The translations under genes were made by a program, and so were the position numbers. A DNA stretch of 13,336 bases from contig JAQTMA010000111.1 in assembly GCA_028714615.1 (NCBI GenBank), positions 1-13,336 on the forward strand, written 5' to 3'. Under the pieces are notes generated by a model. That model was not told the DNA's origin and did not search any database. It was given only the letters and a program-made list of their open reading frames with translations. This DNA comes from Anaerolineaceae bacterium (GTDB lineage: Bacteria; Chloroflexota; Anaerolineae; Anaerolineales; Anaerolineaceae). Shown piece after piece: positions 1-13,302 of the stretch (position 1 is its first letter; the number at the start of each line of letters is the position of its first letter).

Positions 1-67
1 AGCCTGGATCCCCGCGCTCAAGGCAACCCAAATGCATCCGGTGGAAACGCTCCGGGGATGGGAGTAA
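1..67 (+). CDS. C-terminal end of an FtsX-type ABC permease (partial, cut by window start)
   Basis: Reading in the frame that ends at TAA 65-67, the residues AWIPALKATQMHPVETLRGWE are the same as the last residues of the permease at 1703-4396 (quoted here in part: the end is ETLRGWE). In that family this is the cytoplasmic tail after the last membrane helix, with the common P-x-E-x-L-R ending. Only about 21 codons lie in the window, so it cannot be said whether the upstream gene is full length or a remnant like the copy at 7165-7425. The stop is followed 4 bp later by the ATG of an ATPase remnant, the same spacing as at 4396/4401. Confidence 0.7.
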   Translation, partial: AWIPALKATQMHPVETLRGWE

Positions 68-127
68 GGCAATGTTGCAGATGGTCGACCTGGTAAAAAC
101 CTATGGGGATGGCGCGGCGGTGCGAGC
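1..127 (+). repeat. ABC junction repeat, copy 1 (permease 3' end plus ATPase 5' end)
   Basis: This segment matches 4330-4456 without a difference that I can find by eye. It holds the last codons of an FtsX-type permease (stop codon 65-67), the 4-bp gap and the first 19 codons of an ABC ATPase. Homology ends abruptly after GTGCGAGC at about 127 and lower-GC sequence begins. The left end is cut by the window edge, so the upstream permease may be complete. Copy 3 (7365-7491) differs at several positions, so copies 1 and 2 are the closest pair and probably the most recent duplication or gene-conversion product. Confidence 0.9.
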
Positions 128-257
128 AGGAAATCAAGTTAACATTAATTCAATGAGCATTCCTGGTAAACCAATCGGGAATTTTCTATCTCGTAGATAT
201 GGATATTCGATATCGGAGCTTACCTCGAATTCAGTGGAAATATGGCGAAAGTCATAG
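72..257 (+). pseudogene. ABC ATPase 5' remnant fused to unrelated sequence (61 codons)
   Basis: The first 19 residues ([19 protein letters not shown]) are identical to the N-terminus of the intact ATPase at 7436-8098. After that come 42 residues with no resemblance to an ATPase: Walker A, Q-loop, signature and Walker B are all absent. The junction at base 127/128 coincides with a shift to more AT-rich sequence. The open frame ends at TGA or TAG-type stop by 257. I read it as a truncated gene joined to foreign DNA. A short translated leader ahead of the cargo genes is possible, but nothing in the sequence demonstrates it. The 42-residue tail is not recognised. Confidence 0.7.
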
Positions 258-355
258 GGTTAAAGTCTTGGGTAAATCGTGACTTTGACCCTATTGGTGT
301 GACAAGTGAAAAAGTATACAATGCCTTTAGGAGAAGATCTGATCTGAGATTCTAG
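197..355 (+). other. Short open frame, possible coding remnant of unknown origin
   Basis: The frame between a stop at 194-196 and TAG at 353-355 is open for 52 codons, with an ATG at 242 (37 residues beginning MAKVIGLKSWVNRDFDP). The composition, with several Trp, Asp and Phe residues, reads like protein, but there is no convincing ribosome binding site (GTGGA lies only 3-4 bases before the ATG). It overlaps the tail of the ATPase remnant in another frame. It may be a broken piece of the gene that supplied the cargo DNA. I do not recognise it and it may be chance. Confidence 0.2.
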
Positions 356-569
356 ATTGGATGTATACATCGCATTCTCCTGGGGATTAAAAAGCTTATT
401 GATACAAAACCAAACCCCATCGGATTGCAGCGAGAATAGGCCATGATAAGTTCCGGAAAAATGAAAACTTTACGAAGATTTAACTTCCTGCATGCTATGA
501 TTAACATAACTATAAATTTGAACCAGATCACAAATCAATCGGGTTTCACTATGGTTTTGGAGTGAAAGA
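356..569. other. Noncoding, AT-rich leader of the thioredoxin-fold gene
   Basis: No gene-like frame is seen here. A 10-bp palindrome ATGTATACAT lies at 361-370, and GTATAC also occurs at 314-319. TATAAA at 511-516 is a possible -10 element about 54 bases before the ATG at 570, but no good -35 element is at the right distance. The segment probably carries the promoter of the gene pair 570-1567; this is inference. Confidence 0.3.
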
Positions 570-1133
570 ATGAATAATATCAAACCCGGTGCTATAAATC
601 TGATCTTGATCGGATGCGTTATAGTATTGCTTCTTTCAAACCTGGGTCTATTCCTACGCATGAATGAATTACAGATCGAGATAATCCAGTTTTTACGAGC
701 TTCACAATTCTCATCAGATATGCCAAAGGGTCTCCAAAAAGGTGTCAAAGCACCCCAATTCAGCTTGGCAGATACAACAGGGCATATAGTTACGCTTGAG
801 GATTTTAGGGGACAGACCATACTAGTAGTTTTCTCGAGAACGACATGCCCAGCATGTCAGAAGATGTATCCGGTTTTAAAGAGTTTCCACGAGAGCCACC
901 CTTCACAGGTTATTATAATGATTTCAAGCGGCACAGAAGAAGAAAACCGCCAAATACTCATAAAAGAGGAATTAGATTTTCCAATATTGAAATGGCAAGA
1001 TAGTATAACCAGTACATATCAGGTCCCAGGTACGCCATTCTTTTATATTATTGATGGCCAGGGCTTCATTCTCAGAAGTGAATTTGCGGATTCATTAGCA
1101 AGTATTGAAGCCCTTTTTCGTTTCGATCATTGA
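570..1133 (+). CDS. Membrane-anchored thioredoxin-fold protein (TlpA/MauD-like) with CPAC motif
   Basis: This is a 187-residue protein. One hydrophobic helix at about residues 9-29 should anchor it in the membrane with the catalytic domain outside. The domain starts at about residue 58 with the pattern GVKAPQFSLADTTG, followed by LEDFRGQTILVVF, which is typical of redoxin/AhpC-TSA-like and TlpA proteins. The redox site is C93-P-A-C96, and a Thr-Pro at 155-156 fits the cis-proline loop beside the active site. In known relatives this fold reduces, oxidises or isomerises disulfides of exported proteins; MauD, for example, is needed to mature the cysteine-rich subunit of methylamine dehydrogenase. 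ATG 570 is preceded by GGAG at 559-562, 7 bases away. The next gene encodes an eight-cysteine exported protein, an obvious candidate substrate. The fold is clear; the direction of the reaction is not. Confidence 0.85.
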   Translation: MNNIKPGAINLILIGCVIVLLLSNLGLFLRMNELQIEIIQFLRASQFSSDMPKGLQKGVKAPQFSLADTTGHIVTLEDFRGQTILVVFSRTTCPACQKMYPVLKSFHESHPSQVIIMISSGTEEENRQILIKEELDFPILKWQDSITSTYQVPGTPFFYIIDGQGFILRSEFADSLASIEALFRFDH

Positions 1134-1156
1134 CATACTAAGTCAGCCCACGCTGA

Positions 1157-1163
1157 AAGGAGG
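1157..1163 (+). promoter_or_regulatory. Orphan Shine-Dalgarno-like AAGGAGG
   Basis: A full-strength AAGGAGG sits 24 bases after the stop of the thioredoxin-fold gene, but no ATG, GTG or TTG follows at a usable distance in a frame that stays open. An ATT-start reading would stop after about four codons. It may be a relic of a lost small gene, or chance. A weak hairpin TGGGTT/AACCCA (1192-1197 with 1205-1210) lies between it and the next gene. Confidence 0.3.
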
Positions 1164-1249
1164 AGATTAAATTTATTCGATCTATATAGAGTGGGTTCTG
1201 TATCAACCCAGATTATCACGATCCAACATATATCCAGAAGGAGGATTTG

Positions 1250-1567
1250 ATGGCAACCTATGGAAAAGCCGACCATATTTTATTAAGCCTGCTATTGATT
1301 ATGTTCATAGCGGGGATTGCGTTAGCTGCGACAAATTTCGTAGCCTATGCTGCCACATCTGACCTACCAAAACAACAAGATGCAAATATACGAAGGCTAT
1401 GTCCAATAGAGTATTGCCGTCTTATCAGTACGGCTGATTGTGGTTCTTGCTTTGCGAATGACCAACCTGGAAAAATTCGACACTGGAAATGTCACATCGA
1501 AGATCCATGTACTGGTTATGTTGGTGCGGAATATGACACATATGAATGCGTATTGATCTGTGGATGA
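1250..1567 (+). CDS. Exported cysteine-rich small protein, unknown function
   Basis: This is a 105-residue protein from ATG 1250; a TTG three bases upstream is in frame, but AAGGAGG at 1238-1244 is 5 bases from the ATG and favours it. Residues about 9-35 are hydrophobic and end in an Ala-rich stretch (FVAYAA), fitting a signal peptide with cleavage near residue 35, or else a single anchor. The remaining 70 residues carry eight cysteines (51, 56, 64, 67, 81, 87, 100, 104), one Trp (79) and few hydrophobic runs, as in a small disulfide-stabilised domain. The even cysteine number suggests four disulfides. Its upstream partner is a thioredoxin-fold protein 116 bp away. The pair resembles MauD plus the cysteine-rich MauA in layout, but a single Trp excludes a tryptophan tryptophylquinone made from two Trp residues. 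I do not recognise the family; a toxin, bacteriocin or enzyme small subunit are all possible. Confidence 0.75.
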   Translation: MATYGKADHILLSLLLIMFIAGIALAATNFVAYAATSDLPKQQDANIRRLCPIEYCRLISTADCGSCFANDQPGKIRHWKCHIEDPCTGYVGAEYDTYECVLICG

Positions 1568-1621
1568 GGGAATTGGCGTCTCTTTTGATCCTCATAATGA
1601 TCTACATCATTAATACGGGCA

Positions 1622-1685
1622 CGAGGTTGAAGAACCAAAGTATTACTTAATTGGAATCTTCAACCTCGGACTCACCCCCTTTTTT
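1622..1685 (+). terminator. Probable rho-independent terminator or attenuator
   Basis: A perfect 12-bp inverted repeat pairs 1622-1633 (CGAGGTTGAAGA) with 1657-1668, enclosing a 23-base loop. Six T residues follow at 1680-1685, about 11 bases after the stem, which is farther than in a strong terminator. It would close the transcript of 570-1567. The permease ATG at 1703 is only 17 bases beyond the T-tract, so no promoter fits between them. The permease is therefore expressed by read-through or from a promoter before the hairpin. Confidence 0.6.
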
Positions 1686-1702
1686 ACAACAATTCCTAAT
1701 CG

Positions 1703-4396
1703 ATGGGATGTATTCGATTGAACAATGTGAAGAATCCTCAATACGTACCCAATCTCTTGCGCAGATTTGTTCATTTTAGATTCCTTGCTTTCGGGTTGCT
1801 AATCATCAGCCTGGCCTTCCAGTTTGTGAGTGCGGCAATCTATACAACAAATCTAACTGCCGATCGAGACCTTTCCGGGCATTGGCGTACTTCATACGAT
1901 ATACTGGTGCGCCCACCCGAGAGTCGTAATGATATCGAAGAGCACCATGGGCTGGTGGAGGCCAACAGCCTATCCGGAATTGCTGGGGGGATCACTTACA
2001 GCCAGTTCGAACTGATCAAAGCCCTTCCTGGGATTGAGGTTGCTGCGCCGATTGCCATGCTTGGATACATCCCTGAAAGACTCCAGGCTGCCAATTTCGG
2101 TGTGCAAGCTAAACCGGGAATTTACGAGTCTTCCGTAACTCTGGAGATTAACAATGGCGTCAATAGTTACAGCACCGTTTATGGCGGCATGAATTTTTAC
2201 GTCGGAGCGGACGCAAAAGGCGGGTTTAGTTCCGTACCTAAGCTTGGCATGACTGCGGTAAACCCACCATATTCAATAACCTCGAACGTTGATTTATCTT
2301 TCTTGATGGCCGGGATTGATCCTTTCCAGGAGTCACAACTTGTTGGGTTGGACCGGGCTTTGTTAACGAATGAGGTGCTAGAGGCAAGTTTGACCGACCC
2401 TTCATATGAGAAAGCGCTTCACCAGGCTCTGATCCAGGGATTGATCCAGAGTGTATACCTGGATGACAATAAGACCGTATCGATTCAGAAGATTACAGAT
2501 CGGGAAGGTAAGCCTGAAACTCTGGTGAATGTCCCCGTGCTCATCAACGCTACCCCTTACGTACAGCTAAAATTGCGCACCGAATTGAAACGTAAAGTGT
2601 TACCTCCTGAGGTCACAACACTTGCAGAAATCATCACCCGAGGGGGTGGTACTTATTTGGCCTCGCTGCCTGAAGAATTGGTGGCAACCAAAGAAATGGA
2701 TAGCGCTCAAGCTTATAAGCAACTGGCGATCAATTTACTACTCCCCAATGGTTTGGCATCCCGCAACCCTTTTCCATTTCCGGAAACTGCGACGATGCAG
2801 ACCTTCTCTGCCAGTATCCCCAGCCCAATCAAGTATCAAGAAGCCCAGTTGCCTTTCCCTGGTGGAGGGAATCATCTGGAGATCCTCCTACCTCAAGGGT
2901 CTGAGGCGATTGGGTACAAGGCTGAACCCGCCTACCGCGAATCAACCGATGGGTCGACTGCAGGAAAACAAAATCGGTTTAATGCGAATTTCATCTTGGA
3001 TGCAATCGGCGTTTTTGATATCGAACGCCTGCCTAAACCTACGGATGCCAATCGTGTGCCATTGGAAACGTACTTCCCACCACTTGCCATCCTGCGCTAT
3101 GATATGGAAGGGCATCCGGTCGAACCTCGCATGTTGAATCCCACCCTCAACCTGGCCGGGTATATTCAATCCCCACCCCTTATTCTCACTACCTTGAAGG
3201 CCGCGCGGCTCATAGCTGGAGAAGACTGCATCAGTGCGATCCGCATCCGTATAAAGGGGCTTGATCGTCTGGATCATACTGCTCAACAAAAGATCGAAGC
3301 TATTGCCAGTGAGATTCACCGCCTAACTGGATTGGATGTGGACATCATGGTTGGATCTTCGCCCAAACGTATTCTGGTAAAGGTGCCGGATATTGGCATC
3401 GTTGAAGAACAGTGGGTGCAAAAGGGGGTCAATACTCAGATCGGCCAAAGCATCAATCAGACCAACCTGTTCCTACTGGGGGTTTTCTCCGGGGTATGTG
3501 TCATATTCGTTTTCAGTACAACGTTGGTAAGCGTCATCCAACGGAAGAGTGAGATTGGCTTACTCAAAGCACTCGGATGGCGCTCGCACACCGTATTTAA
3601 TACCTTCATCGCTGAAATCCTTGGGGTGGTTTTCTTCAGTACCCTCTTGGGAATCGGGCTATCCGTTGGATTGTCGTGGCTTTTTCACCTTGACTTCCTC
3701 TGGAGCTGGGCGGGTGAAGCCTTCGTGCTTACACTGGTAGTTGGTGGTGTCGGAGGTCTTCTCCCGGTTTGGTCCAGCATCCATAGCACCCCAGCCGTCA
3801 CTCTCCAGATGGGTCAGATTTCGCCCATCCGTCAGCTTTGGTTTTCCAGCAATTACCCCTTGCAAAGCTTGTACCGTCGCCCAGTGCGTAATTTGGTGGT
3901 CATGCTCGGGCAAGCGGCAGGCAGTGGTATGGTGGTCCTGATTCTCCTCGCCATTTTCCAAAGTCATGGGTATCTGGTTGGGACACTAACCCTGCTGGGA
4001 GAATATATCCAGCAGCGGGTTGGATGTTTTCATTACCTGATTGCAACTCTTTGCCTGTTGTTATCGGGGTTGAGTTTGAGTGATCAGATGATCCTGGCGG
4101 TTCGAGAACAATCCCGAGAAATTGGCTTGTTGATGGCTGTCGGTTGGCGAACGCGGGGTATTTTTACAGTGTTTATCACCCAGGGTTTGGCGCTTGGACT
4201 GGTCGGGGGGATTATCGGATCGCTCAGCGCGGTGATGTTTTATGGGTTGCTTTCCACAAGTCTGCCCTGGAGTGCGCTATGGTTTGGACTGTTGGGTATA
4301 TGCTTAAGTGCTGCAACCGGGGGGATTGCAGCCTGGATCCCCGCGCTCAAGGCAACCCAAATGCATCCGGTGGAAACGCTCCGGGGATGGGAGTAA
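1703..4396 (+). CDS. FtsX/MacB-type ABC transporter permease, full length
   Basis: This is an 897-residue membrane protein. A first membrane helix (about 27-47) is followed by a large extracytoplasmic domain (about 50-580), then three helices (about 588-608, 635-660, 668-690) forming the first FtsX domain. The second bundle lies at about 730-752, 774-794, 820-850 and 858-882. Each bundle has the typical cytoplasmic coupling segment: EIGLLKALGW near 617 and EIGLLMAVGW near 806, where the ATPase docks. Such permeases act with a LolD/MacB-class ATPase in lipoprotein or peptide export, or in mechanotransmission such as cell-wall hydrolase control. The start at ATG 1703 has no clear ribosome binding site; TTG 1718 and GTG 1727 are in-frame alternatives. 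Its own ATPase partner 4 bp downstream is broken, so it probably works with the intact ATPase at 7436-8098. The substrate is unknown. Confidence 0.9.
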   Translation: MGCIRLNNVKNPQYVPNLLRRFVHFRFLAFGLLIISLAFQFVSAAIYTTNLTADRDLSGHWRTSYDILVRPPESRNDIEEHHGLVEANSLSGIAGGITYSQFELIKALPGIEVAAPIAMLGYIPERLQAANFGVQAKPGIYESSVTLEINNGVNSYSTVYGGMNFYVGADAKGGFSSVPKLGMTAVNPPYSITSNVDLSFLMAGIDPFQESQLVGLDRALLTNEVLEASLTDPSYEKALHQALIQGLIQSVYLDDNKTVSIQKITDREGKPETLVNVPVLINATPYVQLKLRTELKRKVLPPEVTTLAEIITRGGGTYLASLPEELVATKEMDSAQAYKQLAINLLLPNGLASRNPFPFPETATMQTFSASIPSPIKYQEAQLPFPGGGNHLEILLPQGSEAIGYKAEPAYRESTDGSTAGKQNRFNANFILDAIGVFDIERLPKPTDANRVPLETYFPPLAILRYDMEGHPVEPRMLNPTLNLAGYIQSPPLILTTLKAARLIAGEDCISAIRIRIKGLDRLDHTAQQKIEAIASEIHRLTGLDVDIMVGSSPKRILVKVPDIGIVEEQWVQKGVNTQIGQSINQTNLFLLGVFSGVCVIFVFSTTLVSVIQRKSEIGLLKALGWRSHTVFNTFIAEILGVVFFSTLLGIGLSVGLSWLFHLDFLWSWAGEAFVLTLVVGGVGGLLPVWSSIHSTPAVTLQMGQISPIRQLWFSSNYPLQSLYRRPVRNLVVMLGQAAGSGMVVLILLAIFQSHGYLVGTLTLLGEYIQQRVGCFHYLIATLCLLLSGLSLSDQMILAVREQSREIGLLMAVGWRTRGIFTVFITQGLALGLVGGIIGSLSAVMFYGLLSTSLPWSALWFGLLGICLSAATGGIAAWIPALKATQMHPVETLRGWE

Positions 4397-4475
4397 GGCA
4401 ATGTTGCAGATGGTCGACCTGGTAAAAACCTATGGGGATGGCGCGGCGGTGCGAGCCGTTGATGGGATCAACCTG
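4144..4475 (+). repeat. ABC junction repeat, copy 2
   Basis: These 332 bases align without a gap to 7179-7510 and, over 4330-4456, to bases 1-127. They span the end of the permease gene, the 4-bp gap and the first 25 codons of the ATPase. Differences from copy 3 include CTCAAGG against CGCAAAG near the permease end and TGG against TAG in the last codons. Homology with the intact ATPase resumes after a deletion, at 4476-4608 against 7790-7922. Confidence 0.9.
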
Positions 4476-4661
4476 AAGGATCGTGCCCAGGAGCTGTTGC
4501 AGAAGGTGGACATGGAGAAACGCCTGCACCACCTGCCGGGGCAGCTATCGGGAGGAGAGCAGCAGCGAAGGGCCATCGCGCGGGATTTGATCAACGCATG
4601 CGCATCCATTTTCGTTGATTATTCGGAAATCCTTATTCAATTACCCTCAAGGAGACTATAA
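4401..4661 (+). pseudogene. ABC ATPase remnant lacking Walker A and Walker B
   Basis: This is an 86-codon open frame derived from the same ATPase as 7436-8098. Residues 1-25 match, then residues 26-118 of the intact protein are missing (279 bases, 93 codons, frame kept). The end points lie in similar sequences (ATCAACCTG and TTCAATCTA), as in slippage between short repeats. What remains includes the signature LSGGEQQR, but with V-to-R and A-to-D changes right after it. Homology ends near 4608, before Walker B. With no P-loop it cannot bind ATP normally. Its stop (4659-4661) is 2 bases before the amidase ATG, and its last codons overlap that gene's AAGGAG, so it might act as a translated leader through coupling; this is inference. 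Confidence 0.85.
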
Positions 4662-4663
4662 AA

Positions 4664-5905
4664 ATGAATATGCATTCAAGCAAGCTAACCTTCAATATCT
4701 TTGCGGTTCTGGGATTATTATTAACGCCATTTAGCTTAGCGTCAACCAACAGAGAACAGGCAATTGGTTTCACACATGATCAAGAGGTAATTTCCCATTC
4801 CTTAAAAACGCGGGTTAATCCCTGGATAACCGATGAAGATAAAATCAAGGCGGTAATCAACTCTTACTTTTATTTACGTTACGAGGGGCAGAAGCAACTT
4901 AAAGAACAAGATTATTCTTCTCTCTTGGCAGATAAAACACAGAAATGGGTCCAGGAAGAAGAAGATAAACGCGAGATCGAATTCTATGTTGCATCGATTT
5001 TTAAGCTCAATTATGTGGATTATAAATATGCACTCGATTATGATTCTATTGAAATCATAAGCAACATTGCGACGGTCCATTTACGCGAGAATCATGAAGT
5101 GATATTTGAAGCCATTGCTCCAGAAGTATCTAAACTGGCTAATCTTGAGCATGTAATTACTCTCCGTAAATCCTCATACAGGTGGGCAATTGTAAGTGAC
5201 GAGTATCAGGACGAGGTTACTAGAATGATGACTGCCGAGACCAAAGAAAGTATCCTTAAACGGGTACGCCTCAATTATGAGGATGATTTACACCGAGCCA
5301 TTGTTATAGAAGGTGGGAAGAATACACATAAGTCGCCATATACTACTGATTATTTGTATGATAGAACCCTAGCAGTCAACTACGCAGATTCATATTGGGA
5401 TAGTACAGGTCCCCATTATCGACGTGATCCATCTGGTAATGACTGTACCAATTTTGTGTCACAGTCTATTTACGCTGGTCAAAGTAAATCTCCACCTGAC
5501 ACAGATGGAATGGGATCACCGAGCAGTGATCCAATAAGCTGGGAGTATGGACACAATTGGTATTATCGGTTCGACAGCGGGTCTTCCTCAACACCTCTCA
5601 ATCAATCAGCATCTTATGCATGGATAAATGTGGGAGGACAGAACAATTTCATACAGACCGGCTACACAACGGGGCCATTTGGTTATGAAACCAATATCTG
5701 CACAATTCGCGATGGTGATGTAATTCAATATAAGGTAAACGGGTACTGGTCTCATGAGGGGATGTTGGTTCAAATAATAGGCCCATGTACAAGCCTATCC
5801 AACTTTTTAATTGATGCACATACATCTGATCGATATCACTATCCCCTTTCCTACTGGAGTTCATTTGAGCTCAATTATCTTGTCATCGATGGATGGCGAG
5901 GATAG
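4664..5905 (+). CDS. Secreted putative amidase (Amidase_6-type cysteine hydrolase)
   Basis: This is a 413-residue exported protein. A signal peptide of about 26 residues ends near SLAS. Residues about 30-220 form a charged, partly helical region of unknown role. The C-terminal domain begins near residue 228 with YLYDRTLAVNYADSYW and has the hallmark DCTNFVSQ (D260, C261) of the putative amidase domain Pfam Amidase_6. Candidate catalytic partners are H364 in WSHEGM and D384/H386 in IDAHTSD. Members of this family are thought to cut amide bonds, probably in cell wall or peptides, but few have been assayed. ATG 4664 has AAGGAG at 4649-4654, 9 bases away; ATG 4670 is an in-frame alternative. The gene is more AT-rich than the ABC genes around it and sits between two copies of the ABC junction repeat, so it looks like acquired cargo. 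The next gene is a lipoprotein 136 bp downstream. Confidence 0.8.
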   Translation: MNMHSSKLTFNIFAVLGLLLTPFSLASTNREQAIGFTHDQEVISHSLKTRVNPWITDEDKIKAVINSYFYLRYEGQKQLKEQDYSSLLADKTQKWVQEEEDKREIEFYVASIFKLNYVDYKYALDYDSIEIISNIATVHLRENHEVIFEAIAPEVSKLANLEHVITLRKSSYRWAIVSDEYQDEVTRMMTAETKESILKRVRLNYEDDLHRAIVIEGGKNTHKSPYTTDYLYDRTLAVNYADSYWDSTGPHYRRDPSGNDCTNFVSQSIYAGQSKSPPDTDGMGSPSSDPISWEYGHNWYYRFDSGSSSTPLNQSASYAWINVGGQNNFIQTGYTTGPFGYETNICTIRDGDVIQYKVNGYWSHEGMLVQIIGPCTSLSNFLIDAHTSDRYHYPLSYWSSFELNYLVIDGWRG

Positions 5906-6041
5906 AATTACGATCTAATTCTCCTCAAATATGTGACGATTATAATAAATCCGCCGAATTATCCTTACCCCATTGGATTGTAGATAGGTTTATAGTAGTA
6001 TGACTTTCGAGATATCCATTTTACGTTAGGAAATCCCAATT

Positions 6042-7118
6042 ATGGCTATCATTTTTGTGCGTTTGCTGAAAAGAGGAATGATCTTGCTAATTATTATTTG
6101 CCTGGATAGTTGCAATCATCCATCGATCAACCAATTGACACCTACCGCGAAAATTCCGGCATCTGGTATACAAGGAGTGACTGACGTCCCAATATCGGGA
6201 CAATCAACATTATCAACTGCCCCATCATTAACGCCGCAAGGCTCTCGGATACCTGTGTCTCTCCCGGATAATTTGGAGGTGGAAGAATACACGCTTAAGT
6301 CAAAGCCTCAACTCGACCCCTTGAGTTTTGAAGTAACACAGGGTTCAACGGCAGAGGTGCTGAAAAAACACCAGGTTGCGCGAAGTATGAAGCTCCACCT
6401 GTCAGATACCAACGATAAACTCGGACAATTCGGTTATAGCTTAACTCCAGTGAAAGCTTCGAGATCTTATATACTCAATCGCAATCAACGCCCCTTCCTC
6501 CAGAACATTGAAAGTTTTGGAAAGGTCTCGATAAACACTTCGGGAACTGATTTCGTGATAGTAATCATTACTAAAGATTCAACGGTGTTGGTCAGCAAAG
6601 CCCATGTGACTCAAACGAATCCTTGGGAAGCCAGTCATAATATTTTCGCAGTTTTTCTGGGAGATGATTTGCTGATTGCCCAACAAGTTGACATAGATGG
6701 TTTTCAGGTTCAAGTAACGCAAGCCGGAAAAACGATTTTTATGGATACTTCTATACCAGCAGGGTATAGGTCAGTTGCCACACCATTACAAGGTTTGTGG
6801 GTAGATGAAGGACATTGGTATCTGGAAGTGGGTGGTGAAGTTTTCCTGGATGGAGAATCCTTGAACAGGCAATATGACTATACTGAAGTTTTTCATTTTC
6901 AATTGATTCATGGCCATCCCTTCTATTTTTTTAATGACGGGACCGGTATTGGCGTTTCGTACAACCATCAAATACTTCCCTTGCGTTATACCGAAATACC
7001 GCACTATGAGTGCTGCAGTGCAGCAGAATTGAATCCAGTTGGCAGAGAGAATATCGTTGCATTCTTTGCCCAACGTCAAGGAATATGGTCCTACGTGGAG
7101 ATTAGTGTTTTTCCCTGA
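6042..7118 (+). CDS. Putative lipoprotein, unknown family (paralogue of 10627-11640)
   Basis: This is a 358-residue protein with an N-terminal hydrophobic segment (about 13-21) and C24 in LDSC. That resembles a lipobox, though Asp at position -2 is unusual. A Thr/Pro/Ser-rich linker runs to about residue 75. The folded part begins with EEYTLKSKPQLDPLSFE and ends with a well-marked motif IPHYECCSAAELNP, with adjacent cysteines C324-C325, then VAFFAQR and W-YVE. All these motifs recur in the protein at 10627-11640, so they define a local family. Relative to that paralogue it has about 70 extra residues in the middle. TAGGA at 6027-6031 lies 10 bases before ATG 6042; ATG 6078 is a weaker alternative. 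It follows the secreted amidase and may be its surface partner, but this is only proximity. The function is not recognised. Confidence 0.75.
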   Translation: MAIIFVRLLKRGMILLIIICLDSCNHPSINQLTPTAKIPASGIQGVTDVPISGQSTLSTAPSLTPQGSRIPVSLPDNLEVEEYTLKSKPQLDPLSFEVTQGSTAEVLKKHQVARSMKLHLSDTNDKLGQFGYSLTPVKASRSYILNRNQRPFLQNIESFGKVSINTSGTDFVIVIITKDSTVLVSKAHVTQTNPWEASHNIFAVFLGDDLLIAQQVDIDGFQVQVTQAGKTIFMDTSIPAGYRSVATPLQGLWVDEGHWYLEVGGEVFLDGESLNRQYDYTEVFHFQLIHGHPFYFFNDGTGIGVSYNHQILPLRYTEIPHYECCSAAELNPVGRENIVAFFAQRQGIWSYVEISVFP

Positions 7119-7164
7119 TCCGGGCCGGCTGGCCGGCATCGCAGCCGGAACAGTGATGAAACAC

Positions 7165-7425
7165 ATGGTGAGTGTCTATTGGCGAACGCGGGGTATTTTT
7201 ACGGTGTTCATCACCCAGGGTATGGCTCTTGGACTGGTCGGGGGAATTATCGGATCGATCAGCGCGGTGATGTTTTATGGGTTGCTTTCCACAAGTCTGC
7301 CCTGGAGTGCGCTATGGTTTGGATTGTTGGGTATATGCTTAAGTGTTGCTACCGGGGGGATTGCAGCCTGGATCCCCGCGCGCAAAGCAACCCAAATGCA
7401 TCCGGTGGAAACGCTCCGGGGATAG
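7165..7425 (+). pseudogene. FtsX-type permease 3' remnant
   Basis: Only the last 82 or so codons of the permease survive, from the WRTRGIFTVFITQG segment on. They cover the final two membrane helices and the tail MHPVETLRG. In the complete gene this corresponds to 4144-4396. The last Trp codon has become TAG, so the frame ends two residues early (7423-7425). Clear homology starts at 7179; MVSVYW just before it may be a diverged LMAVGW. The segment 7119-7160 between the lipoprotein stop and this remnant is a GC-rich patch (GCCGGCTGGCCGGC) unlike the AT-rich gene before it, and may mark the recombination join. No coupling helix or extracytoplasmic domain remains, so this is not a working permease. 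Confidence 0.85.
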
Positions 7426-7510
7426 GAGTAAGGCAATGTTGCAGATGGTCGACCTGGTAAAAACCTATGGGGATGGCGCTGCGGTGCGAGCCGTGGATGG
7501 GATCAACCTG
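7179..7510 (+). repeat. ABC junction repeat, copy 3
   Basis: These 332 bases align without a gap to 4144-4475 and partly to 1-127. It is the most divergent of the three copies, with scattered substitutions (for example CGCAAAG, GATAGGAG, GGCGCTGCGG). It is also the copy that leads into the only complete ATPase gene in the window. Confidence 0.9.
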
Positions 7511-8098
7511 GAGATTCAAATGGGTGAATTCGTCGCCCTGGTCGGGCCTTCCGGTTCGGGGAAGACCACCTTGCTGAACCTGATCGGCACCCTGGATCAG
7601 CCAACCTCGGGCAAAGTGGTCATTGAAGGGGTGGATACTAGCACCTTACGCGGCGACGGAATGGCCGATTTCCGGCGCACCACGATCGGGTTTATCTTCC
7701 AGATGTTCAATCTCATTCCAACCCTCACAGCCTGGGAGAATGTGATGCTGCCGTTGACGCCGTACCGGCGCGGACTCAAGTTCAATCTAAAGGACCACGC
7801 CCGGGAACTGTTGCAGAAGGTGGGCATGGAGAAACGCCTGCAGCACCTGCCGGGGCAGCTATCGGGTGGGGAGCAGCAGCGAGTGGCCATCGCGCGGGCA
7901 TTGATCAACGCTCCGCGCATCATCCTGGCCGATGAGCCCACCGGCAACCTGGACTCAAAGTCGGGTGAGGAGGTGGTCAGCCTGCTGGAAAGCCTGGTGC
8001 GGGAGCAAGGGCTGACCCTGGTGCTGGTGACCCACAATGCGGAGATTGCCGGTCAGGCGGATCGGGTGATCCATTTGCAAGATGGCAGGTTGGTCTAA
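7436..8098 (+). CDS. ABC transporter ATPase, LolD/MacB class, intact
   Basis: This 220-residue protein has the usual length for the class. It has all the working motifs: Walker A GPSGSGKT (37-44), Q-loop Q89 in FQMFNLIP, signature LSGGEQQR (142-149), Walker B IILADEP (162-168, with D166 and E167), D-loop NLDS and switch H200. It would power an FtsX/MacB-type permease at the membrane. ATG 7436 is chosen because it matches the N-terminus of the two remnants and sits 10 bases after the stop of the permease remnant; an upstream in-frame start would run through the permease gene in the wrong frame. Its immediate permease is broken, so its likely partner is the permease at 1703-4396 or one outside the window. 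It ends 5 bp from the stop of the convergent M23 gene. Confidence 0.95.
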
Positions 8099-8103
8099 GA
8101 ATG

Positions 8104-10302
8104 CTACGGGAATGCCTGCGCCAGCCAGACCAGCGGATCGACCTGGACACCGTTGGCCCATACCTCCCAATGCAAATGATCCCCGGTTACCCGCCCGGTT
8201 GCTCCGATCTTCCCAATCACCTGGCCGGCTGAGACCTGGTCGCCAACCTGGACGTCGATTTCGCTTTGGTGCCAGAAGCCGCTGTAGATGCCCCAGCCAT
8301 GATTGAGGATGGTGGCATTGCCGCGGACGGTCAGGCTGCCGGTAAACACGACCACTCCGGCCGCCGGGGCAAAGATATTTTTCGTATCGCACAGGCCGAA
8401 ATCCAACCCGCCGTGGAAGAACGTATAAGCGGAACCGTTATACGAGCGACGGTTGCCATAGCCCGAGGGTTGGCAAGATCGATCGACAGGGCGCATGAAA
8501 ACACCGTTCCAGCGTTTCTGGGGGCTGGCCGGGGCAGTGAGTGCGGCGACCTTGCTTTCTTCGGGCTGGGTGACAGCCGGGTCCAGTGTTTGGGGATCGA
8601 CGTCTAGCGGCGGATCCTGGATGAACTGCCGGGCAAGCAACAGCATCGCCTGTTCGTATTCAGAATTTTGTCCTCCTTCGGCAGCGGCGCTGACCGACAG
8701 ATCGGTGAGTCCCGGTGCGGCCATGGCGTGGATGCCCTGGATTGCCACGTATTCGTGTTCTCCCTCCTGGAAAAAGTGCAACGCACGGCCATCGAGCCAC
8801 CCGGTCAGAACAGCCGGGGTGGTTGTCTCTACGCGGATTACGGTTGTATTACCTTGTTCGACGCTTTGCGCATCCAGCGTCACTTGAACGATCAAGGGGT
8901 GCTGATTACTTGGGTCGTCTTCATTCTGGCCAGGCGGCAAAAGAAGCGGTTCCCCGGGCAGGAGTAGCTCTGGAGAAGCTGCCTGGTTAGCCCAGGCTAG
9001 GATCCACGGGTTCTTCTCGTGGAGCAGCGCATATTCCATGACAGACTGTCCGGGTTCAAGTGATGGCAAATTCACCGGTTGGCGAATTGCTTTCCCGACC
9101 GGGAGCGCCAGGAGCGATCCGGCATACAGTTCTTCCGGATTGACGATGCGGTTCAAACGGCTCCATTCATCCCAGGGAATCCCCATCCGGCGCGCCAACC
9201 CTTGCGCCGTCTCGCCGGTGGGCATCTTCTCGATTGTCAATTCGCCTGCCAGACCATCTCGTCCGGGGATGGAAAGGTGCAAACCCTCGCTTAGCATGTC
9301 TGGGTTGGCGTCCGGGTTGGCCTCGATCAGCTCCGCTACGGAGACCTTGAACTCCCGGGCGACCAGCGTGAACGAATCGCCCGGTTGGGCGACATAATAG
9401 GGAAGGCCGCTTACTTCCGGCGTGGGAGTATTCCCGCCTGGGCAAGGTACGATCTTTTCGACCTGGCTCTGCGCGCGGCGCTCGCTCAACCAGCCGGTGA
9501 GGGCTTTTCGCTGGATGGCCCGGTAAGCCGTTGGCGTGAGCGGCCGGCCGGGTTGCAATGCGGTCACTTGCACGATGTGGTATCCGAGGGGTGTGTGGAT
9601 GATGGGGCTTACCTGGCCGGGTTTGAGGGCAAATGCAGCCGTTTCGATCTCCGGTTGGGTGAGGGCGCCTCGCGGAAACCAGCCAAGGTCGCCCCCGGTA
9701 ACCGGCGAGACTGGCTCGACCAGTTCCTGGAAGGTTGCCTTCCCTTGCTGCAACTGCGCGAGGGCGATGTCCGCCTCCGCCTGACCGGTAAAGAGCATCT
9801 GACGGGCATGCACCTGATCGGCTTGAGAAGGCGTCTGCGCCAGGATGCGGTCGCGCTGCCAGGCAGCCGCTATCGAGCGCCTGATGCGCAAGGAAAGTCC
9901 ATCAGGCGTCAACTGGTCGCCTACCAGGGGCGCGACCAGGGCGGCGCGATTGCTGAGTTCTGCTTCGCCAGGCGTAAAACCATTTTCCAGCGCGGCTTGC
10001 GCCAGGAGGAGTTCATCGACCAATGCGTTCAAAGTGGTTTCACACTGCCGGTTCTTTGTCCAGTGGGTTTGGAGGGCCTGGTCGGCAGCCTGTACCGCCT
10101 GTAGCTCGGCGGTATAAGCTGCCAGCGTGATGCCTTCCCCGTTGACCCTGGCTGCCAGCGCTTCCGAAGTTGGGGATGGCTGGATGAGAGGCGCTGTGGT
10201 GGTGGCGGGGGTTGCCGCGGGCGTATAGCGCGGCGATGGGTTACAGGCGCAGGCGAGAAGGGTTGATCCAACAATCAGGGGCACGATTTTTTGAATCTTC
10301 AT
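8104..10302 (-). CDS. Lipoprotein with PpiC-type prolyl isomerase, LysM and M23 peptidase domains
   Basis: This is a 732-residue exported protein. The lipobox LLAC places the lipidated cysteine at C18, followed by a Pro/Thr-rich linker. Residues about 50-160 resemble the SurA-type N-terminal helical region. A PpiC rotamase domain lies at about 165-250 (GGDLGWFPRG, GYHIVQV). A LysM repeat lies at about 302-347 (YYVAQPGDSF), with two weaker LysM-like repeats at about 355-402 and 412-457. The C-terminal M23/LytM domain (about 600-730) keeps H630-G-G-L-D634, H678 and H709-L-H711, the zinc and catalytic residues, so it should be an active endopeptidase on peptidoglycan cross-links. ATG at 10302 has GGAGGG (complement of 10309-10314) 6 bases away. 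It converges on the ABC ATPase with a 5-bp gap. A link between FtsX-type ABC systems and M23 enzymes is known (FtsEX-EnvC); here it is only proximity. Confidence 0.92.
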   Translation of the reverse strand: MKIQKIVPLIVGSTLLACACNPSPRYTPAATPATTTAPLIQPSPTSEALAARVNGEGITLAAYTAELQAVQAADQALQTHWTKNRQCETTLNALVDELLLAQAALENGFTPGEAELSNRAALVAPLVGDQLTPDGLSLRIRRSIAAAWQRDRILAQTPSQADQVHARQMLFTGQAEADIALAQLQQGKATFQELVEPVSPVTGGDLGWFPRGALTQPEIETAAFALKPGQVSPIIHTPLGYHIVQVTALQPGRPLTPTAYRAIQRKALTGWLSERRAQSQVEKIVPCPGGNTPTPEVSGLPYYVAQPGDSFTLVAREFKVSVAELIEANPDANPDMLSEGLHLSIPGRDGLAGELTIEKMPTGETAQGLARRMGIPWDEWSRLNRIVNPEELYAGSLLALPVGKAIRQPVNLPSLEPGQSVMEYALLHEKNPWILAWANQAASPELLLPGEPLLLPPGQNEDDPSNQHPLIVQVTLDAQSVEQGNTTVIRVETTTPAVLTGWLDGRALHFFQEGEHEYVAIQGIHAMAAPGLTDLSVSAAAEGGQNSEYEQAMLLLARQFIQDPPLDVDPQTLDPAVTQPEESKVAALTAPASPQKRWNGVFMRPVDRSCQPSGYGNRRSYNGSAYTFFHGGLDFGLCDTKNIFAPAAGVVVFTGSLTVRGNATILNHGWGIYSGFWHQSEIDVQVGDQVSAGQVIGKIGATGRVTGDHLHWEVWANGVQVDPLVWLAQAFP

Positions 10303-10626
10303 AGTTAACCCTCCGTGTTGATTGGATCGAGATTACTTTGTGGACATGCCTGCCATATGTGTACGCCATCAGGTGTGGAACCGGTTTGATTCATAGCTTT
10401 TTCCTCCATGCATGCAAGCTATGGAGGAGAGTACCGGTTTTTACCGGTGATGCGAAAAGTTAGGGATACGTAAATAGAAGACGCACACCCTATGCGAAAA
10501 GTTCCTGCCTGCTTTGCCTTTGTCATGCAGATTCATAGGGACCGTGGGAATTTCATTGTAAACAAGTTGGTGGGAACTCCCTCGGCATTCGAACCGTCTC
10601 CATCAGAGGAAGTGGAGTCGCCAACC
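10303..10626. promoter_or_regulatory. Divergent intergenic region with nested hairpins
   Basis: This region separates two divergently read lipoprotein genes and must hold both promoters. ACCGGT occurs three times, as ACCGGTTT at 10380-10387 and 10433-10440 and as ACCGGT at 10443-10448; the last two form a hairpin with a TTTT loop (10433-10448). Two mutually exclusive stems precede it: CATAGCTT (10392-10399) with AAGCTATG (10416-10423), and CCTCCAT (10403-10409) with ATGGAGG (10421-10427). I see no convincing -35/-10 pair. An open frame upstream of 10627 (from ATG 10492) is in frame with the lipoprotein, but has no signal sequence or ribosome binding site and is probably leader. Confidence 0.45.
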
Positions 10627-11640
10627 ATGATCTCGACCCGGATCGTTCCGTTTCTGACCATACTCCTGCTGAGTGGGTGCATTCCCGCCCAGGCGCCTGT
10701 CGCGACGATTATCCCCACTCCACAGGACTGGGGAACGCAACAGGTTGCCACGCCTGAGGGTACTCTTGTGGGCGAGCAGGGCTGCTTGCCGGGGCGATTG
10801 ACCTGTGCGAGCGCTACTTTAACACCCCCGCCATCCCCCAATGCATGGGACGTCCGATTGACAAAGACAACCCTGACCCCGATCCCTTCAGCCACAGAAG
10901 AAGCGCCCACGCCTGTCTCCATTCCGTCCTACTCGCATCGCTTTCCCTCGGGATTGGTCGTGGAAGAGTATGAGCTCAAAGCGGCTCCCCAGATGGAACC
11001 GCTGACATTTGATCCCGTCCAGGGCTCCCAAGCCTCAATTTTGGAAAAACATCGCGTGGAAAGAGAACGGTATTTCTACCGCCGCAGCATCTATAGTCCA
11101 GAAATGTTGATCTATCCAGCCACCGGAGAAGGCCAATACCTGGCCAAGCAGGTGTCTGCGGATGTCGATGGGCGCATGAAAGTATCGGTTGAGGTATTAA
11201 AGGATGGGAAGGTCATCTTCACGGCGCCGGCGGGCGACATCAGCCCACTGGATGCGGTGCGTGGACTATGGGTCTCCGCAGGTCATTGGGTGATCGAGTA
11301 CGCCGATGTGACCAGCACGAAGGCCAATGCGTTGGAAAGCAGATTAACGAAAGTTGGGCAAGTCGTCCAGGATGGCGTCCTCATCAATCAGCGGGATGGG
11401 GTGCAAGAAGTTTTCGGTTTCCAACTATTGAAGGACCAGCCGTTTTATTTCTACAAGAAAAGTGACCAGATCAAGGTCGCTTATGCTGGAGAAAATTATC
11501 CCATAGGGTACGACGATATCCCCCACTACGGCTGTTGCAGTTCTGCAGCGCTCAATCCGATCCAGGCGAAAAATATGGTAGCTTTTTTTGCCCGGCGGAA
11601 CACCACCTGGTACTATGTGGAGATGGGCCGGTACGATTGA
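10627..11640 (+). CDS. Putative lipoprotein, unknown family (paralogue of 6042-7118)
   Basis: This is a 337-residue protein from ATG 10627. That start gives a clean signal peptide ending in the lipobox LSGC (C18) and has GGAG at 10614-10617, 9 bases away. The longer frame from 10492 adds 45 residues that would bury the signal and is rejected. After C18 a Thr/Pro-rich linker runs to about residue 105. The folded part starts with EEYELKAAPQMEPLTFD and ends with IPHYGCCSSAALNP (C303-C304), VAFFARR and WYYVEM, all shared with the protein at 6042-7118. It lacks about 70 central residues found there and is more GC-rich, so the two copies are old relatives or came by different routes. The paired cysteines are conserved and may form a disulfide or bind a ligand. 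The function is not recognised. Confidence 0.85.
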   Translation: MISTRIVPFLTILLLSGCIPAQAPVATIIPTPQDWGTQQVATPEGTLVGEQGCLPGRLTCASATLTPPPSPNAWDVRLTKTTLTPIPSATEEAPTPVSIPSYSHRFPSGLVVEEYELKAAPQMEPLTFDPVQGSQASILEKHRVERERYFYRRSIYSPEMLIYPATGEGQYLAKQVSADVDGRMKVSVEVLKDGKVIFTAPAGDISPLDAVRGLWVSAGHWVIEYADVTSTKANALESRLTKVGQVVQDGVLINQRDGVQEVFGFQLLKDQPFYFYKKSDQIKVAYAGENYPIGYDDIPHYGCCSSAALNPIQAKNMVAFFARRNTTWYYVEMGRYD

Positions 11641-12318: not shown

Positions 12319-12471
12319 CCCCTGCCCCCGCGACAGCGCCGTGAGTCCTAAGCACAAGGGTAGGCTGGGTGGTGGGGATGTAACCCTCCACCCCCACACT
12401 ACGGCTGGCGCTCAATTCCGGGTGACCGAGCGCCATTGTAGTGACCGACCCATGTATCGGCCATCTTGGCT
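12319..12471. other. Noncoding segment before the repeat array
   Basis: No gene is seen. An 8-bp inverted repeat TGGCGCTC/GAGCGCCA (12406-12413 with 12428-12435, 14-base loop) lacks a T-tract and so is not a standard terminator. It could still stabilise the 3' end of the upstream transcript. Confidence 0.35.
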
Positions 12472-13302
12472 TGTAGAGACGCCCCGGTGGGGCATCTTCC
12501 CCGGGTGAATTGGATCTCTGCACTGCAGCGTCTGGCCCCAAAGAATGTAGAGACGCCCCGGTGGGGCGTCTTCCCCGAGGTAAATTGGATCTCTGCGCTG
12601 CAGCGTCTGGCCCCAAAGAATGTAGAGACGCCCCGGTGGGGCGTCTTCCCCGAGGTAAATTGGATCTCTGCGCTGCAGCGTCTGGCCCCCAAAGAATGTA
12701 GAGACGGCCCGGTGGGGCATCTTCCCCGAGGTAAATTAGATCTCTGCACTGCAGCGTCTGGCCCCCAAAGAATGTAGAGACGAACCGGTGGGGCATCTTC
12801 CCCGAGGTAAATTGGATCTCTGCGCTGCACCGTCAGGCCCCAAAGAATGTAGAGACGCCCCGGTGGGGCATCTTCCCCGAGGTAAATTGGATCTCTGCGC
12901 AGCAGCGTCTGGCCCCAAAGAATGTTGAGACGCCCCGGTGGGGCGTCTTCCCCGAGGTAAATTGGATCTCTGCGCTGCAGCGTCTGGCCTCAAAGAATGT
13001 AGAGACGCCCCGGTGGGGCGTCTTCCCCGAGGTAAATTGAATCTCTGCGCTGCAGCGTCTGGCCCCAAAGAATGTAGAGACGCCCCGGTGGGGCGTCTTC
13101 CCCGAGGTGAATTAGATCTCTGCGCTGCAGCGTCTGGCCCCAAAGAATGTAGAGACGCCCCGGTGGGGCGTCTTCCCCGGGTGAATTGGATCTCTGCGCT
13201 GCAGCGTCAGGCCCCAAAGAATGTAGAGACGCCCCGGTGGGGCGTCTTCCCCGGGTGAATTGGATCTCCCAAGTGCCAGACGCTGCAGCGCAGCGTCTCT
13301 AC
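12472..13302. repeat. Tandem array of eleven ~75-bp palindromic repeats
   Basis: Units begin with GTAGAGAC (GTTGAGAC in one) at 12473, 12547, 12622, 12698, 12774, 12849, 12924, 12999, 13074, 13149 and 13223, so the spacing is 74-76 bases. Each unit has a hairpin AGACGCCCC-GGT-GGGGCGTCT, a spacer with CTTCCCCGAGGTAAATTGG, and a 10-bp palindrome CGCTGCAGCG. Units near 12999 and 13074 are almost identical, while the units at 12698 and 12774 have a damaged left hairpin arm. The last unit is partial and ends in an inverted copy of the unit's own end: 13276-13292 is the reverse complement of TGCGCTGCAGCGTCTGG, and 13294-13302 (CGTCTCTAC) is the inverse of the leading GTAGAGACG. There are no variable spacers, so it is not CRISPR. 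It resembles REP/MITE-type palindromic elements that have expanded in tandem. Confidence 0.92.

Follow-up and report, generated by a model that had tools for sequence, protein, structure and literature searches.

How could the end of one permease gene, joined to the start of an ATPase gene, come to stand three times in a stretch of DNA that retains a single full copy of either gene? The question is raised by a window of 13,336 bases (the whole stretch analysed; Anaerolineaceae bacterium, assembly GCA_028714615.1, contig JAQTMA010000111.1), which behaves as a metagenome contig. The window probably shows a section of a tandem array whose units serve peptide secretion, in which recombination between common ends multiplies the units and swaps their middles and in which spare ATPases decay. 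The features on which the argument is built are these:

1..127, forward strand: junction copy 1 at the contig edge, with a permease C-terminal end (2-64) and an ATPase start (72-127, about 18 codons), found by tblastn
570..1133, forward strand: TlpA/ResA-type thioredoxin with an N-terminal membrane segment (residues 3-32, hydropathy) and a CPAC motif
1250..1567, forward strand: open reading frame (ORF) of a cysteine-rich peptide precursor, 105 residues with 8 cysteines and a hydrophobic leader (residues 5-36)
1622..1668, forward strand: hairpin (inverted repeat) separating the peptide and permease genes; the fold of 1568-1702 has z -4.92
1703..4396, forward strand: FtsX-type permease, 897 residues, with a membrane segment at 21-49, a large outer domain and more membrane segments from 584 (hydropathy)
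4144..4475, forward strand: junction copy 2, the permease from about residue 814 to its end plus about 25 ATPase codons
4401..4619, forward strand: ATPase remnant, consisting of the start, a 279-bp internal deletion and then the LSGGEQQR region, without the GPSGSGKT and ILADEP stretches
4664..5905, forward strand: Amidase_6 protein, 413 residues (PF12671, 79.7 bits against a cut-off of 23.2)
6042..7118, forward strand: lipoprotein-like protein, 358 residues, without a Pfam match
7179..7510, forward strand: junction copy 3, a permease C-terminal remnant (7179-7431) and the beginning of the intact ATPase
7436..8098, forward strand: intact LolD/MacB-type ATPase, 220 residues (ABC_tran, 126.2 bits)

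The original prediction, made from the letters of the sequence, placed direct repeats of the permease/ATPase junction at 1-127, 4144-4475 and 7179-7510, and these coordinates are right. Copies 2 and 3 align free of gaps over 332 bp with 318/332 positions identical (14 mismatches, 95.8%) and a longest identical run of 65 bp, and copy 1 agrees with 4330-4456 at 127/127 positions and with copy 3 at 123/127. A further block, 4468-4597, resembles 7782-7911 (88%); since the offsets differ (3314 vs 3035), it represents a second ATPase piece in copy 2 beyond the internal deletion. The ATPase of copy 2 thus consists of about 25 codons, an in-frame loss of 279 bp including GPSGSGKT and a part that keeps LSGGEQQR and ends before ILADEP, three stretches that we take to be functional ATPase motifs. 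As GPSGSGKT is missing and the frame ends before ILADEP, this remnant is unlikely to work as an ATPase. Of the permease in copy 3 only the last 83 or so residues are left, and a stop replaces a Trp codon near the end. Copies 2 and 3, compared over 84 codons, show 7 synonymous and 5 non-synonymous changes, and the stop is one of these 5. One full permease (1703-4396) and one full ATPase (7436-8098) survive, as had been predicted, and the genes between the copies (TlpA-type thioredoxin, 8-cysteine protein, Amidase_6 protein, lipoprotein-like protein) are as they had been described. The stubs of ATPase and permease give the impression of an array shedding spare parts.

Do such arrays exist elsewhere? 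The window permease has 203 homologues at E<=1e-20, the named ones mostly in Anaerolineae and relatives, so that its host probably belongs to Chloroflexota. It is present in 19/396 genomes of the class (E<=1e-60), in 14/400 genomes of the phylum (E<=1e-100; some of them also in the class sample) and in 9/131 relatives of genome G009 (E<=1e-100), and a 24-sequence permease alignment led to 42 loci in genome contigs (numbered with an L below). In 68 loci, permeases with at least 500 bases upstream were inspected for a cysteine-rich ORF with a hydrophobic leader on the same strand within 1.3 kb. Such an ORF precedes 34 of 63 permeases, or 31 of 60 once the duplicates L092, L098 and L100 are dropped, compared to a fraction of 0.012 (1.2%) at 20,000 random places from which peptide ORFs were left out. 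Among 66 permease matches, a TlpA lies within 1.6 kb upstream in 23 and an ATPase just downstream in 28 or within 6 kb upstream in 12; the remaining 26 have an ATPase on neither side, some of them owing to the contig end. TlpA, 8-cysteine protein, permease and ATPase therefore are a recurrent operon, a locus type without description in the literature searched, the scope of which excluded most subscription journals. The RNA between the peptide and permease genes folds stably (z <= -2) in 9 of 12 loci of our choice, the others being L004, L018 and L006; the hairpin would fit a partial terminator that gives more peptide than permease.

Aligning the locus with related genomes, as the original prediction had proposed, revealed tandem units. 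In all three arrays that have the ATPase on the contig, two permeases go with one distal ATPase, in the order permease, permease, ATPase in L027, where no peptide was found, permease, TlpA, peptide, permease, ATPase in L129, and peptide, permease, TlpA, peptide, permease, ATPase in L130. L004 has one TlpA in full and two in part, together with three peptides that differ from each other; L013, which also contains a partial TlpA, and L021 have two permeases each and no ATPase on the contig. L012 shows the anatomy of the window: its permease, TlpA and peptide are followed by an ATPase of another ATP-binding cassette (ABC) type, two large ORFs without Pfam match, a 34-residue permease stub and the ATPase, and the stub is of a permease type other than that of L012's own permease. 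Tandem units with different peptides, the partial TlpA of L004, the single distal ATPase of L027, L129 and L130, and the anatomy of L012 support the predicted tandemly multiplied locus that is losing parts. Two candidates were set aside: a 24-residue upstream permease end in L021 is weak and was not used, and L019 was not counted as a permease, cargo, stub array, its insert reading as a transposase-like ORF pair, presumably IS630-like. In L020 a cut TlpA runs directly into a permease without a start.

A plain tandem duplication of the permease-ATPase unit, after which the copies decayed in complementary fashion, modules were not exchanged here and amidase and lipoprotein arrived later, would also account for copies 2 and 3 being 95.8% alike and truncated in complementary ways, and it has a counterpart in L129, where the two permeases are 93% alike and have one ATPase. 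However, the genes in the three intervals are unrelated and low in GC content (TlpA 40%, cysteine-rich protein 42%, amidase 41%, lipoprotein 43%) as compared to 50-60% in permease and ATPase, and L012 indicates that a stub may derive from another permease type. We therefore regard mere duplication as unlikely.

What lies to the left of copy 1? A metaSPAdes run has been described with -k 33,55,77,99,127 (PMC7171226, the part consulted). As the match of copy 1 starts at base 1 and spans exactly 127 bases, the largest k, copy 1 is probably a k-mer overlap left by the assembler at a graph edge, provided that this contig was made in such a way. If so, copy 1 is just the last 127 bases of a repeat whose full length lies off the contig; the predicted junction is real and its extent is set by the assembly. 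The branch is real, since the permease end has two continuations, 128 onwards and 4457 onwards, and what lies to the left may be a unit further upstream, the 4329-bp unit once more in tandem, or a circle. The same exact overlap at the contig edge, together with the link 4456/4457 running through the copy 1 sequence, would be expected if the contig joined paths of different strains through the repeat so that its order is not that of any one genome. Against this it can be held that copies 2 and 3 have no identical run above 65 bases and are separated by a k of 127, and that L012, from another genome, has the same order of permease, other genes, permease stub and ATPase; a mixture of strains is improbable. 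As to circles, a small circular TlpA-peptide-permease molecule could enter if one crossover took place within the permease/ATPase region, leaving full permease, cut ATPase, insert, cut permease and full ATPase in this order. The window start recurs at 4330 and would close a 4329-bp loop, and L006, a contig of 3905 bp with TlpA, peptide and permease and without an ATPase, is, judged by its identical 141-bp ends, a closed or tandem unit. Yet both signs fit tandem repeats in a short-read assembly equally well. Furthermore, no look-alike of a recombinase or replication protein was evident in the 10 window ORFs scanned with Pfam, no viral contig encodes a relative of the permease and the 6 plasmid records matched are only 25-33% identical, so that neither a recombinase gene nor carriage on phage or plasmid marks the locus as a mobile element. 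Small circles are hardly probable as origin of the window. The contigs of L020 and L026, the same metagenome-assembled genome (MAG) by title, both break off inside the permease and share 73 identical bases there, again a sign that the assembly breaks at near-identical copies.

Do the units exchange their middles? Comparison of 13 close pairs of loci (upstream or permease-end identity of at least 76%, the pattern judged by our reading of the table) revealed 5 in which the peptide core has been replaced along with the ectodomain of the permease, leader and permease C-terminus being alike. L003 and L016, in Anaerolineales MAGs, are 91.7% identical over 9.65 kb as far as about peptide codon 22; from there DNA homology is missing over the core and the first 385 or so permease residues, save for a 225-bp patch (68%), and then returns at 84.8%. 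L010 and L018, one MAG by title, are 94.5% identical from TlpA into the leader, without homology from there to the middle of the permease, and 83.9% identical thereafter. L013 and L014, also one MAG by title, have leaders 89% alike and permease ends 85% alike, and no likeness ahead of the leader; they are otherwise different units with a common permease 3' end, which starts at about residue 733. Third-base agreement at 4-fold sites of identical residues was determined for four of the five exchange pairs (all but L006/L013). It is 33% inside the permease module and 69% in the C-terminal part for L003/L016, 31% and 86% for L010/L018, 29% and 76% for L006/L018, and 31% and 86% for L013/L014, as opposed to 83% in both parts of the control pair L022/L030. 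Near-saturated synonymous sites that adjoin well-kept ones argue for a replacement of the modules by a distant allele and point to recombination. The edges of exchange fall at window permease residues 436-495, ahead of the second membrane segment at 584, and the window repeat spans from about residue 814 into the ATPase. The repeated permease end of the window fits such a recombination handle, and by analogy with the relatives an exchange may have occurred here as well.

Several observations weigh against this reading. Twenty-nine of the 63 permeases, including Dormibacterota and Salinispora records, lack a cysteine-rich leader ORF upstream, and copy 1 may be a circle or a strain branch. Among the close pairs 8/13 are collinear, and the 5 exchange pairs share loci and are hence non-independent. 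The collinear pair L006/L010 also has a third-base agreement of 46% over residues 1-420 and of 79% after, so that part of the difference may be one of rate. The peptide cores themselves have too few 4-fold sites (6 and 7), and the few of L010/L018 agree at 83%. Finally, in comparison to its nearest relative, P0003, the ectodomain of the window permease is 73% alike and the last 130 residues 63%; the ectodomain being better kept, no exchange is visible in this comparison.

With slightly less confidence than in the explanation given at the outset, we favor a polymorphic secreted-peptide system in which the core and its matching ectodomain form one module that recombines between fixed ends. A single ATPase and often a single TlpA would be common to the tandem modules, and the window would represent an intermediate with cast-off ATPase and permease ends. 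Each unit would originally have consisted of TlpA, cysteine-rich peptide, permease and ATPase. TlpA with the peptide leader at one end and the C-terminus of the permease with the beginning of the ATPase at the other would be the common ends between which homologous recombination multiplies units and swaps the middle, which is the peptide core with its own permease ectodomain. One ATPase can serve several permeases, and spare ATPases would consequently decay, leaving in the window the ATPase stubs of copies 1 and 2 and, as last unit, a permease stub before the sole intact ATPase. Such a history would make the window a concrete route by which arrays with a shared ATPase could arise, and a joint exchange of core and ectodomain, if it takes place, would mean that recombination in nature marks the substrate-reading part of the permease.

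What are the peptides? Counted after residue 25, the cysteines are even in number in 46 of 50 (31 chosen by position and 19 from a search with an 11-peptide alignment) and in 22 of 25 once cores at least 50% alike are removed, as compared to 14 of 21 ORFs of the same type unlinked to a permease, a set that includes some true peptides. In three leader groups, 28 of 33 peptides have a cysteine within the last three residues. Of the 20 peptides scanned, none reached a Pfam or NCBIfam cut-off, the nearest being the leader of an L102 peptide with the Tat-signal model (14.2 vs 16.7 bits). The 8-cysteine protein of the window, in genomic position and type common to the relatives, recovered only itself in a single-sequence search, belongs to no Pfam or NCBIfam family and had chance-level matches in the PDB (best E 0.68). 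With the 11-peptide alignment, 22 more entries were recovered at E up to 10. All of them lack a Pfam domain; two are the L014 and L017 peptides, and one, P0143, is weak (E 3.1). Leaders are kept and cores differ: within the leader groups median identity is 0.50-0.71 for leaders and, cysteines excluded, 0.19-0.21 for cores vs 0.17-0.18 for shuffled ones, a contrast biased by the selection of the groups by leader motif, and in 127 pairs of position-picked peptides it is 0.35 for the leader and 0.27 for the core. The idea that cores are under diversifying selection is weakened, as they are 0.76-0.96 alike in 8 pairs with a permease identity of at least 0.74. The distant loci L102, L130, L133 and L134 from the Chloroflexota search have twin-arginine-like leaders (RRTFLKW, RRSLLKW and similar) that are not Sec-like, and the first export step may thus differ there; Tat-model scores of the L102 leaders are weak. 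A third leader type (MLKEYLSEAVSLL...), amphipathic-looking and unlike a Sec signal, is found in L002, L003, L009, L016 and L026. L009 has a second cysteine-rich leader ORF upstream of TlpA (L009:119-379), with a leader differing from that of its neighbor.

Are amidase and lipoprotein also cargo? The original prediction saw exported cargo swapped between the copies, and both genes do lie between two junction copies and have a low GC content like the TlpA and cysteine-rich genes. Relatives of the amidase occur in 4/396 genomes and those of the lipoprotein in 17/396, and in 13 loci with wide flanks (8 to 20 kb; all 4 amidase genomes and 9 of the 17 lipoprotein genomes) not a single one has the permease or TlpA beside them. 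Moreover, the lipoprotein-like protein is only 39% identical to its paralog at 10492-11640 (over 173 columns, C-terminal half), so that it does not go back to the repeat. It is highly improbable that both are alternative exporter cargo swapped in at the permease/ATPase border; they are probably passengers, which would have come into the decaying interval. The original prediction is thus supported in part: a multiplied array in decay fits, and what relatives show to be exchanged is the core of the peptide along with the N-terminal part and ectodomain of its permease. Relatives of the lipoprotein-like proteins also adjoin in pairs (L123, L126).

How might the machinery act? Judged by the gene content, the peptide would be exported via its leader, TlpA would form or correct its disulfides outside, and the MacB-type permease and ATPase, the former working on the outer face with an ectodomain that recognizes the core, would expel the folded peptide or protect the producer from it. 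The permease contains the FtsX-like domain of type VII ABC systems (PF02687, 75.9 bits vs a cut-off of 25.5), and the ATPase is of the LolD/MacB type that goes with it. PDB profile matches of the permease, the ectodomain limits of which were set by hydropathy and alignment, are confined to the C-terminal domain (solved MacB, 57 bits, and LolC/E), and the ATPase matches MJ0796 with 218 bits, MacB with 207.7 and LolD with about 190. Among the 25 NCBIfam families listed for the ATPase no cut-off was reached (LolD 233.8 bits, below 307.75), and the MacB equivalog PRK10535 (cut-off 966) gave 58.2 bits for the permease and 231 for the ATPase. The TlpA matched AhpC-TSA with 51.6 bits, and in the PDB search the ResA rows were used and the top row, a TAL-effector entry over 36 residues, was disregarded.

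The nearest tested parallel is the export of STII of E. coli by MacAB-TolC, in which Sec transport and Dsb oxidation outside precede export (PMC5985334, as far as consulted). Here, too, a small disulfide peptide would be oxidized outside and then moved by an ATPase and a permease related to MacB. In contrast to MacAB-TolC, permease and ATPase are encoded separately, the former having about 900 residues and two stretches of FtsX type, and the operon includes a TlpA of its own. Neither a MacA nor a TolC gene came to notice in the window, relatives not having been searched for them. According to the consulted part of the same source, MacB-type systems that lack a partner in the outer membrane serve in sensing or detoxification (PMC5985334). 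It is therefore possible, if on balance doubtful, that permease and ATPase of this locus sense the peptide or protect the producer in the manner of BceAB or YknXYZ, and the restriction of the matches with solved MacB and LolC/E to the C-terminal domain agrees with such a role. One permease per peptide and the order helper, peptide, permease suit export equally and do not discriminate. We continue to think of peptide secretion as the presumable function.

The nearest published lead is the decRiPPter candidate families of Streptomyces, which combine mauE/mauD with precursors of at least 8 cysteines (PMC7794033, in the part consulted). As in the window, a MauD-like thioredoxin adjoins a cysteine-rich precursor; that part of the description mentions no FtsX permease, tandem array or core/ectodomain exchange. 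MauD and MauA of methylamine dehydrogenase are another case of a thioredoxin-fold helper for a neighboring cysteine-rich protein. The likeness ends there, since the window TlpA, although MauD is its best NCBIfam match, reaches 66 bits of a cut-off of 188.6, and 20 peptides had no match with the MauA light-chain model at E up to 10, the HMMER filters dropping most weak matches, so that membership in MauA was rejected. The ATPase is of the same broad family as the lactococcin 972-type bacteriocin export ABC protein (TIGR03608), and with 207.6 bits stays below its cut-off of 254.85. The locus points to a group of secreted, disulfide-rich peptides that has no name as yet and is found mainly in Chloroflexota, every peptide being accompanied by a thioredoxin-fold helper and a MacB-type permease.

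The remainder of the window contains three further features:

8104-10302, reverse strand: 732-residue protein with PpiC-type rotamase, LysM repeats and M23 peptidase, convergent with the intact ATPase
10492-11640: second lipoprotein-like protein, the paralog of the 6042-7118 protein
12424-13270, near the right end of the contig: array of 75-bp direct repeats, with 11 copies of a 47-base part spaced by 74-76

The core of these 75-bp repeats is GC-rich and palindrome-like.

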